Below, one piece after another: positions 35,388-53,275 of a stretch of DNA of 64,000 nucleotides; position 1 is the stretch's first letter, and each line of letters opens with the position of its first letter. The position numbers and the translations under genes were made by a program. The notes under the pieces were generated by a model. That model did no database searches. It saw only the letters and a program-made list of their open reading frames with translations, and had not been told where the DNA came from. Source of the DNA: Verrucomicrobiia bacterium (GTDB lineage: Bacteria; Verrucomicrobiota; Verrucomicrobiia; Palsa-1439); NCBI GenBank assembly GCA_022072455.1, contig JAJVHY010000031.1, forward strand, positions 1 to 64,000, in the 5' to 3' direction.

Positions 35388-36038
35388 ATGCAACGGACGA
35401 TTCGTGGAGTGATGTTTGACTTGGATGGAACGCTGGCGGATTCGCTTGCCGATTTGGCGAATGCGACGAACAGCGCGTTGACGGCGCTGGGTTGTCCGCC
35501 CCACCCGCGCGAGAAATACCGGGTGCTGGTGGGCGACGGGGCGCGCGTGCTTTGTGAACGGGCGGTGCCGGCAGAGCGGCCGGATCTGGTGGAGGAGACG
35601 TTGCGCCGGATGCGGGCGCATTACGATGCGCATTGTTTCGACGAGACGCGACTTTATGATGGGATCCCGGAATTGGTGAGCGAACTGCACCGGCGGGGTT
35701 ACCGGTTGGCGGTGCTTTCGAACAAGCCGGACGTTTTCACAAAACGGATGATCGCCCACTATTTCCAGCCGAATCCATTCGACGCCGTGGCCGGCCAACA
35801 GCCGAACGTACCCCTAAAACCGGATCCGAGCGGAGCGCGAGCCATCGCCGGGCAACTGGGAATACCGGCGGGTGAGTGGCTTTATTTGGGAGACACGAAC
35901 ACTGACATGCTGACAGCCAAAGCGGCCGGGATGATCGCGGTCGGCGTGCTGTGGGGATTTCGCGACCGCGCAGAACTGGTCGGGAGCGGCGCCGAAGAAA
36001 TCGTCGCCGCTCCCGCCGAGGTGTTGAAACTACTGTAG
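35388..36038 (+). CDS. gph: HAD family phosphoglycolate phosphatase-like
   Basis: GVMFDLDGTLADSLADLANATN, LAVLSNKPD, YLGDTNTDMLTAKAAGM. Confidence 0.88.
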   Translation: MQRTIRGVMFDLDGTLADSLADLANATNSALTALGCPPHPREKYRVLVGDGARVLCERAVPAERPDLVEETLRRMRAHYDAHCFDETRLYDGIPELVSELHRRGYRLAVLSNKPDVFTKRMIAHYFQPNPFDAVAGQQPNVPLKPDPSGARAIAGQLGIPAGEWLYLGDTNTDMLTAKAAGMIAVGVLWGFRDRAELVGSGAEEIVAAPAEVLKLL

Positions 36039-36086
36039 GAGCGACATTCTTGTCGCGACCGGTCGGGGCATGAATGCCCCTCCTAC
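36035..36086. repeat. REPIN-like element A (GTAG hairpin...hairpin CTAC)
   Basis: GTAGGA GCGAC-ATTCTT-GTCGC GACCGGTC GGGGCAT-GA-ATGCCCC TCCTAC; gph stop TAG lies in GTAG. Confidence 0.75.
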
Positions 36087-36087
36087 A

Positions 36088-36438
36088 TTAATACCGGCTC
36101 TCGCGACGCCCGCCACGGCCGCCGCCGCCGCCACCGCCAAAGTCGCGACGCCCACCGCCGCCGCCACCGAAGTCACCGCGGGGGCGCTCTTCGCGCGGGC
36201 GGGCTTCATTGACGGTCAAGGCGCGGCCACCGAAATCCTTGCCGTTAAACATTTCAATCGCCTTGTTGGCTTCGTCTTGCGAGCCCATCTCGACAAACGC
36301 GAAACCGCGCGATTTATTGGTGAACTTGTCCACCATCAACTCACACTTCACAACGTTGCCGGCTGTCTTGAACAGGTCCAGCAAATCGCCTTCGGTGGAG
36401 TTGAATGACAAGTTTCCGACGAATAACCTCGTACCCAT
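36088..36438 (-). CDS. RRM-domain RNA-binding protein with Gly/Arg-rich tail
   Basis: TRLFVGNLSFNSTEGDLLDLF, RGFAFVEM, GGGGGGRRDFGGGGGGGRGGRRESRY. Confidence 0.92.
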   Translation of the reverse strand: MGTRLFVGNLSFNSTEGDLLDLFKTAGNVVKCELMVDKFTNKSRGFAFVEMGSQDEANKAIEMFNGKDFGGRALTVNEARPREERPRGDFGGGGGGRRDFGGGGGGGRGGRRESRY

Positions 36439-41525: not shown

Positions 41526-41882
41526 ATGCCCACAGTCGCCATCATCGGAGCGTCAGCGGACCGGAACAAATTCGGCAACAAATCGATCCACGCGCATTTG
41601 AAGGCCGGCTACGAAGTCTTCCCGGTCAATCCGAAGGAAGAGACCATCGAAGGCTTGAAGTGCTACAAGTCGATCCTCGATGTACCCGGCCATCTTGATC
41701 GCATCAGTCTCTATCTTCCGCCGCCGGTCGCCGTAAAGGTGCTCGACGATATCGCGAAGAAGGGCTGCAAGGAATTGTGGGCGAATCCCGGCGTGGAAAG
41801 CGCGGAGTTCATGACGAAGGCGCAGGCTCTCAAACTCAACGCGATCTACGCGTGCAGTTACATGGACGCGGCAGGTCGGTAG
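41526..41882 (+). CDS. CoA-binding domain protein
   Basis: VAIIGASADRNKFGNKSIHAHLKAGYEVFPVNPKEETIEGLKCYKSI. Confidence 0.9.
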   Translation: MPTVAIIGASADRNKFGNKSIHAHLKAGYEVFPVNPKEETIEGLKCYKSILDVPGHLDRISLYLPPPVAVKVLDDIAKKGCKELWANPGVESAEFMTKAQALKLNAIYACSYMDAAGR

Positions 41883-41935
41883 GGTGCGCTATTGCGCACC
41901 ATTCGTCGCCACTGGTGCGCAATAGCGCACCCTAC
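41879..41935. repeat. REPIN-like element C: perfect 23-bp inverted repeat between convergent genes
   Basis: Left arm GTAGGGTGCGCTATTGCGCACCA (41879-41901), 11-nt spacer, exact reverse complement 41913-41935; each arm is itself a hairpin GGTGCGC-TATT-GCGCACC. Confidence 0.9.
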
Positions 41936-43056
41936 ACTTTGTTCGCCTTTAACTCTGCCAGCGAGTAGTGCGTCCCGCGCCAGTCAATGCCGTCGTGGAG
42001 CAGCGTCTTCAGCGTCGCGTTCCAGATGATGTATTGGAACAGAATCGCAGTCAGCGGGAATCCAATCCAGTGCCAGCGTTTCAGGCCGTGAAACGGGGCA
42101 TTATCCATATACATCAATGCGATGACGGCGATAATGGCGAGGTTGAACAACCACACCAGGCCGGTTGTGACAAAAAGCGCGACGACCGGCCAGACGAAGA
42201 GGACGGTTTGCGCAATCGATGCGGCAACGACGACCGAGAGGTTGTATTCCACGCCGGCAAATGAATTTTTCTCCAAACCTTTCACCAACTCGCCCAATGA
42301 CGAGTACCATTCGACGGTCACCATGTCACCGGCAAGCACCATGTCTTGCCGGTAGCCCGACTTCTTAATCAGCTTGCCGAGTTTCATGTCGTCGTCGGGG
42401 CGCATCCGTAACGGTTCGTGGCCGCCAATTTTCCGGTAGACCGCCGCGCGCACGAGGTTAAACGCGCCGATACCGATGTGCCGTGAGCTTTTCGGGTCGC
42501 GTGCCTTCCATGGTTTCGCATACATCCCGAAAAATATTGTGAATGCTCCGCCGAACATGCTGAGCAACGTCCCCGGCATCGCCAGCTGCGGCGCGATGGC
42601 GAGATGGTCGAGTTGCGCCGACACGAGATGATTCACGGCGCGACTAATCGTGCTCGATTCCATGTGAATGTCGGCGTCGGTAAACAGCAGAAACTCGCCG
42701 GTCGCTTGCCCCGCCCCGGCGTGTTGCGCGTGATTCTTGCCGAGCCAGCCTGCCGGCAAGTCGCCGATGTGGACGACTTTGATACCTTCGATCCGGTCGA
42801 GGATCGCGCCGGTCGAGTCAGTGGAACGGTCGTTGACGACGATGAATTCGAGGTTCGGATAATCCTGTTTCAGGAGTGACCGCAACGCCGGCTCAATCTT
42901 GCCGGCTTCGTTGCGCGCGGCAACGATGATCGAGACCTTGCCAGCGAATTGACCGGGCGGCAGGTCGTGAAGTCGACGCAACATCCGATTGCCACGGGCA
43001 AACTCAATCGCTACCGCCAGCAGGCCGAGCAATGTCAGACCGGCGAGCCAGATCAT
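41932..43056 (-). CDS. Glycosyltransferase family 2 protein
   Basis: VSIIVAARNEAGKIEPALRSLLKQDYPNLEFIVVNDRSTDSTG, FTDADIHM. Confidence 0.9.
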   Translation of the reverse strand: MIWLAGLTLLGLLAVAIEFARGNRMLRRLHDLPPGQFAGKVSIIVAARNEAGKIEPALRSLLKQDYPNLEFIVVNDRSTDSTGAILDRIEGIKVVHIGDLPAGWLGKNHAQHAGAGQATGEFLLFTDADIHMESSTISRAVNHLVSAQLDHLAIAPQLAMPGTLLSMFGGAFTIFFGMYAKPWKARDPKSSRHIGIGAFNLVRAAVYRKIGGHEPLRMRPDDDMKLGKLIKKSGYRQDMVLAGDMVTVEWYSSLGELVKGLEKNSFAGVEYNLSVVVAASIAQTVLFVWPVVALFVTTGLVWLFNLAIIAVIALMYMDNAPFHGLKRWHWIGFPLTAILFQYIIWNATLKTLLHDGIDWRGTHYSLAELKANKV

Positions 43057-51226: not shown

Positions 51227-51298
51227 CGGCGCAACGGCGCAACGGCGCAACGGCGCAACGGCGCAACGGCGCAACGGCGCAACGGCGCAACGGCGCAA
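51227..51298. repeat. Perfect 8-bp tandem repeat, 9 units of CGGCGCAA
   Basis: Directly read; 72 bp. Confidence 0.97.
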
Positions 51299-51447: not shown

Positions 51448-51666
51448 AGGAACATTCCCGGACCTTCCGGGAAGATTCCCGAGTCGTTGGGAAGGCTGCC
51501 GGGCCAGCCGGGAACATTCCCAAATCGTCCGGGAATGTTCGCGGACCACTGGGAAGGCTGCCAAACCGTCCGGAAACATTCCCGCTTCAACCGGGAACGT
51601 TCCTACACCGCCGGGAATGCTCCCAAACCATCCGGGAACGTTTCCGGATCATCCGGGAATGCCCCA
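51448..51666. repeat. Array of 11 degenerate palindromic boxes (GGGAANNTTCCC) spaced 20-21 bp
   Basis: Box starts 51448, 51469, 51489, 51510, 51531, 51551, 51572, 51593, 51613, 51634, 51655. Confidence 0.85.
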
Positions 51667-51744: not shown

Positions 51745-52452
51745 ATGGCCCAGAAGAGTTATCTGCCCAAACAGGAAACCAAACTCGGGGACTTTTTGAG
51801 TAATTACGGTCAGAAGATCCCGGTCCACGGACCGACCTGCGGTTTGACCCCCGCGGAGATCGCGGACGCGCAGTTGTGGTGCGCCATCGGTCTGGCCACC
51901 ATCGGCCTGCAAGATAGCGTCGCGATGTACGCCCAAGGCATCACCCGATTCAAGAAATCCGTCTTGTGGGCCACCGAACCAGTCGCCGCGTGGCCGAACC
52001 CGTTCGCCCTGCCGGCCGGCTTGCCGGCGTCCGTCATCGCCGGCGTGGTGCCGTTGCTGACCTTGCAGATCGGCCGGCTCAAACGTCACGCCGGCTACAC
52101 CAAGCAGATCGGCGAAGAACTCGGCACCGAAGGCCCGGACGTGCCGCTCCTGGCCGCGGCCGACGCGGCGGCGCTGAAACCGGTCTTGAAGCTCCGCCTC
52201 GATACCGGCGGTCATCCGTTGGTGCTCTGGAAGAAACAAGGCCTGACCGGCCTCGAACTCCTCGTGGACCGCGGCGACGGCAAAGGATTCGTCTTCCTGG
52301 CGCTGGACACCATTCCCGACTACCTCGACACGTTTGCGTTGCCGGCCGCCGGCACCAGCGCGGTCTGGATCTACAAAGGCATCTATCACCAAGGCGACGA
52401 ACAAGTCGGCCAATGGAGCGACCCCGTCAAAATCAGCGTGATGGGTCAATAA
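51745..52452 (+). CDS. Conserved-looking hypothetical protein
   Basis: GAGGAGG ribosome-binding site upstream of ATG; MAQKSYLPKQETKLGDFLSNYGQKIPVHGPTCGLTPAEIADAQLW. Confidence 0.8.
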   Translation: MAQKSYLPKQETKLGDFLSNYGQKIPVHGPTCGLTPAEIADAQLWCAIGLATIGLQDSVAMYAQGITRFKKSVLWATEPVAAWPNPFALPAGLPASVIAGVVPLLTLQIGRLKRHAGYTKQIGEELGTEGPDVPLLAAADAAALKPVLKLRLDTGGHPLVLWKKQGLTGLELLVDRGDGKGFVFLALDTIPDYLDTFALPAAGTSAVWIYKGIYHQGDEQVGQWSDPVKISVMGQ

Positions 52453-52496: not shown

Positions 52497-52556
52497 GTAG
52501 AACGGGCGGCTCGCCCCTTTGCCCAATCGACTCAACGGGCGGGACGCCCGTTCTAC
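52497..52556. repeat. REPIN-like element D
   Basis: GTAGAACGGGCG-GCT-CGCCC...ACGGGCG-GGA-CGCCCGTTCTAC. Confidence 0.8.
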
Positions 52557-52576: not shown

Positions 52577-53275
52577 ATGAAGAAAACCAAACATCGCAAG
52601 AAACTCCGGAGCCGGCAGACCCGGGCCCGGTTGTTCAACGCGCGGGCAACCCCGGTCATTCTCCCGCCCGGCCCGACGGTGGACGCCTACCGGATCGCCG
52701 GCTATGTGGACGGCCTCATTGGTGCGACGCCGGAGAGCGATCTGCTCAAGCCGCATTTTGACTCTGGCCTCACATGGACTGACGGGAACAATCCCCAGCC
52801 CGGCGACTGGCTCTGGGGTGCCGGCGTGCGCGGCGGCCTCCCGTGGGACGGCACCTTCTACCGGGACCTGACCCGGTATGCCGCGAGCGGTGCGCTCTTC
52901 TGGAGCGCCTACCTGAAGCCCGGTTCTGGGCCCGGCATCCAGAACGGTTTCTGGTTCAATTTCGGTTCCGGCTGGAGTCATCTCGCCAACGACGATTTTT
53001 CCCAGCTCCTCACCGGCGCCTCGCAGCGGTTGTTTTGGGATGCCGGTGTAGTGGCGCCCGTCCCGGGCGCATCTGGCCCAGCCGGAGCCGCCGGGACGGC
53101 GGCCGCTACACCCGGCCACTGGAAGCTGGTGATCGAAGCCACCATGTTTGTCACGAACGCCGTGGTGAATGTCTGGACCGGTGCGAAGCCCTTCAGCCCC
53201 GACCCGACCGGTCAATACACGAGAATGACCGGCTGCGACCCGACCACGACGTTGACCGTGGAGGTCCACTCATGA
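52577..53275 (+). CDS. Hypothetical protein containing a REPIN-encoded Ala/Gly/Pro-rich linker
   Basis: MKKTKHRKKLRSRQTRARLFNARATPVILPPGPTVDAYRIAGYVDGLIG; linker DAGVVAPVPGASGPAGAAGTAAATPG. Confidence 0.7.
   Translation: MKKTKHRKKLRSRQTRARLFNARATPVILPPGPTVDAYRIAGYVDGLIGATPESDLLKPHFDSGLTWTDGNNPQPGDWLWGAGVRGGLPWDGTFYRDLTRYAASGALFWSAYLKPGSGPGIQNGFWFNFGSGWSHLANDDFSQLLTGASQRLFWDAGVVAPVPGASGPAGAAGTAAATPGHWKLVIEATMFVTNAVVNVWTGAKPFSPDPTGQYTRMTGCDPTTTLTVEVHS
53048..53109. repeat. REPIN-like element E, inside CDS 52577-53275
   Basis: GTAGTG GCGCCC-GTCCC-GGGCGC ... GCCGCC-GGGAC-GGCGGC CGCTAC. Confidence 0.75.

Follow-up and report, generated by a model that had tools for sequence, protein, structure and literature searches.

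GTAG-type REPINs and other palindromes recurrently occupy one predicted turn of a Verrucomicrobiota protein family

The window, by which we mean the whole stretch of 64,000 nucleotides analysed here, contains a GTAG-type REPIN that lies in frame within a protein-coding gene, at the predicted turn of a beta-hairpin where most homologs carry only six codons. We consider it likely that this element inserted into a tolerant turn, the most probable agent being a RAYT (REP-associated tyrosine transposase), and that the same turn was filled independently in other members of the family.

Results

The window element and its host gene

The features discussed below are collected in Table 1.

Table 1. Features of the host locus in the window
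Feature	Position	Strand	Description or basis
Partner gene	51745..52452	+	235 aa; tblastn against own-genome stretches
Intergenic REPIN-like palindrome	52497..52556		GTAGAACGGGCG...CGCCCGTTCTAC; between partner and host CDS
Host CDS	52577..53275	+	Open frame, ATG start, TGA stop, 232 aa
Loop segment DAG...PGH	53039..53119	+	81 bp, in place of the 18-bp turn of empty homologs; homolog comparison
REPIN	53048..53109		Two inverted GTAG REP units and spacer; in-frame residues 158-178
REP unit 1	53048..53070	+	GTAG head and hairpin GCGCCCG-TCC-CGGGCGC; sequence, hairpin scan
REP unit 2, inverted	53087..53109	-	GTAG head and hairpin GCCGCCG-TCC-CGGCGGC; sequence, pattern search, hairpin scan

The initial annotation had proposed that a REPIN-like element is embedded in this open reading frame, and the present analysis confirms it. 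Each arm of the 62-bp element has the form of a REP, a GTAG head with a short perfect hairpin behind it; the full spelling is GTAG-TG-GCGCCCG-TCC-CGGGCGC for unit 1 and, on the other strand, GTAG-CG-GCCGCCG-TCC-CGGCGGC for unit 2. As in a REPIN, the two units are inverted and jointly form one larger hairpin, which coincides with an inverted repeat of the window (53045-53066 and 53091-53112, 22 nt, 86% complementary). The element lies wholly within an open reading frame of at least 120 aa and is in frame with it, its bases 53048-53110 encoding VVAPVPGASGPAGAAGTAAAT. As single-stranded DNA it folds with -32.3 kcal/mol, compared with -21.2 +/- 2.5 for shuffled sequences (z = -4.4), none of the 200 shuffles folding as well; for the exact window loop the z-score is -4.75. 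Across 860 kb of the same genome, a hairpin follows 11.2 of every 1000 GTAG occurrences, whereas the rate for seven control tetramers is 3.2-5.2 per 1000.

The window REP itself is scarce in its own genome. A pattern search allowing up to 3 mismatches returned 7 matches, the same number as the reversed control, and besides the two arms of the element the only good likenesses are at C14:83666 and C3:2774. The family to which the element belongs thus occupies only a few loci in this genome, where it was presumably mobile, and since it is low-copy there dispersal had to be demonstrated in relatives.

The host protein belongs to a multi-copy Verrucomicrobiota family and shares 55-67% identity with homologs across genera. 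A Pfam search matched no family to it, to the partner or to the next gene, and when the AlphaFold2 model was compared with PDB structures, nothing matched at E < 3. By tblastn, the partner gene lies upstream of the host-family gene in all four copies of the window's own genome. The DNA upstream of the partner gene is itself repetitive, with nine perfect copies of CGGCGCAA at 51227-51298, followed at 51449-51659 by short palindromes around GGGAACNTTCCC in a degenerate array whose periods are 21 and 62 bp. In many family copies (L048, L061, L065, L070 and others) the terminal TAG belongs to a REP unit directly 3' of the gene.

Empty and filled homologs

We compared 30 homologous copies, nearly all from Verrucomicrobiota genomes, scoring the interval from RLF[YWF] to WKL. 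In 19 of these the turn is empty, with exactly six codons (18 bp, of the type D-x-A-A-G-Q) between RLFY and WKL. Homologs that lack precisely the inserted stretch were what the initial annotation had predicted, and its proposed refutation, that all homologs carry the linker with the hairpin pair diverged away, fails on the same count. The empty set includes two paralogs from the window's own genome (C12, at 153 kb, and C28), and many paralogs are empty within genomes that also hold filled ones. The remaining 11 copies are filled. In 10 of them the loops measure 36, 66, 66, 66, 81, 81, 81, 84, 84 and 90 bp, lengths that are all divisible by three and keep the frame. The eleventh is interrupted by an IS110-type element: in this copy (L066, G028:C27) about 1.6 kb occupies the turn, with the IS110-type transposase gene at the edge of the REPIN. 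Within the aligned core there is no other insertion of comparable size, and in a protein search of relatives the alignments split at about residues 157/178. Some of the filled copies are broken, among them the one that carries the IS110-type element, another that has an internal stop, and truncated ones. A scan of named genomes found close homologs almost only in Verrucomicrobiota MAGs. One homolog (L053) comes from a contig of 2 kb in a 'Geobacter sp.' bin, which is probably a binning error because the other close homologs are from Verrucomicrobiota.

The position of the insert in the fold was predicted from two AlphaFold2 models, whose mean pLDDT values of 63.1 and 60.7 indicate moderate confidence. 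In the model of the filled protein, strands 149-155 and 181-189 lie on either side of the insert; in that of an empty paralog, strands 146-150 and 155-163 are separated by a turn of four residues. The insertion site is thus predicted to be the turn of a beta-hairpin in both.

Classes of insert and their dispersal

The inserts fall into six palindrome classes (A-F), of which four are GTAG REPINs; the remaining two are a CCTCACC palindrome and a GGGGCGAGACTC palindrome at the same place. Class A is the low-copy window element. Class B, the CCTCACC palindrome, fills the C3 paralog of the same genome, a gene with an internal TAA; it is single-copy in that genome and we do not claim it as a mobile repeat. 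Class C (GTAGGCCCGGTGCCCTCACCGGGC) occurs in G013 and G028, and its pattern matches number 11 in G013, 4 in G028 and 5 in G044. Class D (GTAGCGGCGGTCTCnGACCGCCG) belongs to G028, which holds 115 of its REP units, with zero matches to the control pattern. Class E (GGGGCGAGACTCnGTCGAGCC) is found in G028, and G044 has a half element related to it; the class gives 25 and 66 matches in these two genomes. Class F (GTAGCCGG types) fills copies of AM-2014_bin-1020 (G093), where it has 39. By these matches in the host genomes, several of the inserts are members of dispersed repeat families. The fold z-scores of nine loops range from -2.4 (class B) to -6.8, and the inserted peptides have no common sequence beyond what the REPs encode.

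Independence of the insertions

A tree was built from the protein core with the loop left out. This tree requires 9 changes between the filled and empty states, of which at least 4 already follow from the supported branches; since several branches are weak, the precise count is not certain. The filled and empty labels show no clustering beyond chance on the loop-free tree. A comparison within G093 bears on the timing of one insert. Two copies (L049 and L054) have loops that are identical at 65 of 66 positions and flanks that are only 80-85% identical, and an empty sister (L056) is present. Near-identical loops in diverged flanks, with an empty sister, place the arrival or exchange of this insert after the divergence of the gene copies. 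Comparison with paralogs and relatives revealed no target-site duplication and no polymorphic site.

Transposases and REPINs elsewhere in these genomes

Genes for Y1 transposases are present in all five genomes tested. The window's own genome has five Y1_Tnp genes, none of them flanked by the REP family of the window element; one of the five has REPINs of another family on either side. The Y1-flanking REPINs at G000:C9 (L015, 1397-1465 and 2040-2106) are of the same family as a REPIN in the window at 41879-41935. The latter, near-perfect and with GTAGGGTGCGCTATTGCGCACC arms, separates two convergent genes (CDSs at 41526-41882, +, and 41932-43056, -), both of which end in a TAG stop supplied by one of its GTAG heads. 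Similarly, the GTAG of a REPIN-like palindrome at 36031-36090 gives the TAG stop of the CDS at 35388-36038.

REPINs also lie in other coding sequences. In G093 one is in frame inside trpE (L229, G093:C331), the gene for component I of the conserved biosynthetic enzyme anthranilate synthase; Pfam matches this protein to Anth_synt_I_N (8.1e-34) and Chorismate_bind (1.2e-60). Long open frames in G028, G052, G044 and G020 contain class D REPINs, which there encode peptides of the kind VAAVSDRR...RRSETAAT. The frames around these other coding REPINs were found mechanically, the Pfam check covering trpE. By eye, a further in-frame REPIN of G093 lies in a protein with TPR-like repeats. Two gene pairs across genomes (L150/L210 and L203/L195) carry class D REPINs at seemingly corresponding places of similar open reading frames, and same-site REPINs may therefore exist beyond the host family. 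A strict palindrome census had suggested that REPINs cluster near host-family copies in G028; we dropped this idea as an artefact of the regions fetched, because pattern searches place both REP families over most contigs.

Discussion

The comparison with homologs shows that a REPIN inserted in frame at this place and that the predicted turn has been filled recurrently in the family. The following sequence of events would account for the data. Single-strand transposition by a RAYT would bring REPINs to many places in the genome, and those that break a reading frame or a fold would be lost. The window insert would have persisted for three reasons: it offers an open frame, the net gain in length is divisible by three, and the turn can accommodate about 21 additional Ala/Gly/Pro/Val residues. 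Other REPIN families and other palindromes would have come to occupy this turn in independent events in paralogs and relatives, and one genome would have seen its insert copied between diverged paralogs. On this account the insert is presumably translated and roughly neutral. Against it weigh the few loci of the window element's REP family in its own genome, which flanks none of the Y1 transposase genes there, the moderate confidence of the models and the failure to see a target-site duplication or polymorphic site. In addition, tolerance alone offers no obvious reason for the frequency with which this one turn has been struck.

That frequency could reflect a drive at the level of DNA, in which the turn is a preferred target of RAYTs or short tracts are exchanged between paralogs by gene conversion, a reading compatible with insertion into a tolerant turn and one to which we give appreciable, if minority, weight. 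It would explain the near-identical loops in diverged paralogs, as well as the convergence of four GTAG REPIN classes and the CCTCACC and GGGGCGAGACTC palindromes on one place. The empty turns, however, vary in their codons and have no common target motif that can be read from them, and REPINs are also found in other genes and in intergenic places. In a stronger version, which we regard as rather unlikely, the six-codon turn is a preferred landing or exchange site, through target preference or REP-mediated gene conversion, and mobile repeats serve the multi-copy family as a source of new loops.

True exaptation, with the REPIN loop kept for a function such as varying an exposed loop among paralogous binding or surface proteins, strikes us as unlikely. 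Recurrent hits on one turn with loop sequences that differ among paralogs, a class C insert that is in frame in G013 and present also in G028 copies, and the copying of a loop from paralog to paralog would all be expected of it. A retained function is harder to reconcile with peptides that have nothing in common beyond the REP code, with the many empty paralogs of the same genomes and with filled copies that are IS110-interrupted, truncated or closed by an internal stop. Repeat exaptation into protein had been suggested at the outset; the in-frame insertion of a REPIN stands, and the gain of function that the term implies does not fare as well. Given the predicted turn position, the unrelated palindromes in paralogs and the decay of some filled copies, a tolerated insertion in a permissive turn fits better than a conserved new function and is the better supported of the two; a functional role for the added loop is possible and, at present, unsupported.

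If the frame were a pseudogene, or unexpressed, its in-frame state would mean little. Several family copies are indeed broken and Pfam recognises none of this protein, yet such a reading is improbable in the face of 232 open codons conserved at the identity given above across genera, a partner gene kept upstream of each copy in the genome and ten filled loops that all remain in frame. Moreover, the window copy and its own empty paralog differ at 27/16/48% of codon positions 1/2/3, a pattern suggestive of purifying selection in which the periods before and after the insertion are pooled. That the element is a chance palindrome of a GC-rich Ala/Gly/Pro linker, as high GC content and the low copy number of its REP might hint, is scarcely credible for a structure of two complete GTAG REP units that no shuffle matched in folding, that is exactly absent from homologs and whose place is taken in relatives by dispersed REPINs.

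The conversion of REPs into protein is itself a published phenomenon. Intragenic GTAG REPs have been described in open reading frames, mostly as dimers or groups that encode 20-30 residues, with most cases in Opitutus terrae (PMC3733652, BMC Genomics 2013). The same study reported GTAG REP ends that supply TAG stops; recB of two Xanthomonas species was its only case of different REPs at nearly one position. Our observations resemble these in the GTAG hairpins within reading frames, the length encoded, the TAG stops and the phylum (Verrucomicrobia), and differ in that here six palindrome classes fill one turn of one family in several genomes. With REPINs and their RAYTs (PMC3116915, PLoS Genet 2011) the window element shares the two inverted REPs in one hairpin and the presence of Y1-type transposase genes; classical REPINs are extragenic and high-copy, whereas the window element lies in coding DNA and has a family of low copy number in this genome. 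The Rickettsia palindromic elements (RPEs; PMC2229807) are likewise palindromic repeats fused in frame into protein genes, and a Gmk protein carrying one is translated and active (reviewed in PMC2229807). They are, however, 105-146 bp long, specific to Rickettsia and not of the GTAG type, and so the 62-bp element of Verrucomicrobiota is not one of them. The IS110-type element at the REPIN edge in G028:C27 recalls REPs as targets of insertion sequences (PMC1525189); the difference is that the REP target in G028:C27 sits within a coding turn. Compared with the open-access literature, what is new is that a single turn in one protein family has been colonised repeatedly. The empty genes and their filled counterparts, which bear different palindromes at one codon position, form a natural series, which could separate the limits that loop tolerance, the target preference of the transposase and selection for new loops set on the entry of repeats into proteins, and coding REPINs in Verrucomicrobiota extend to conserved enzymes such as TrpE.
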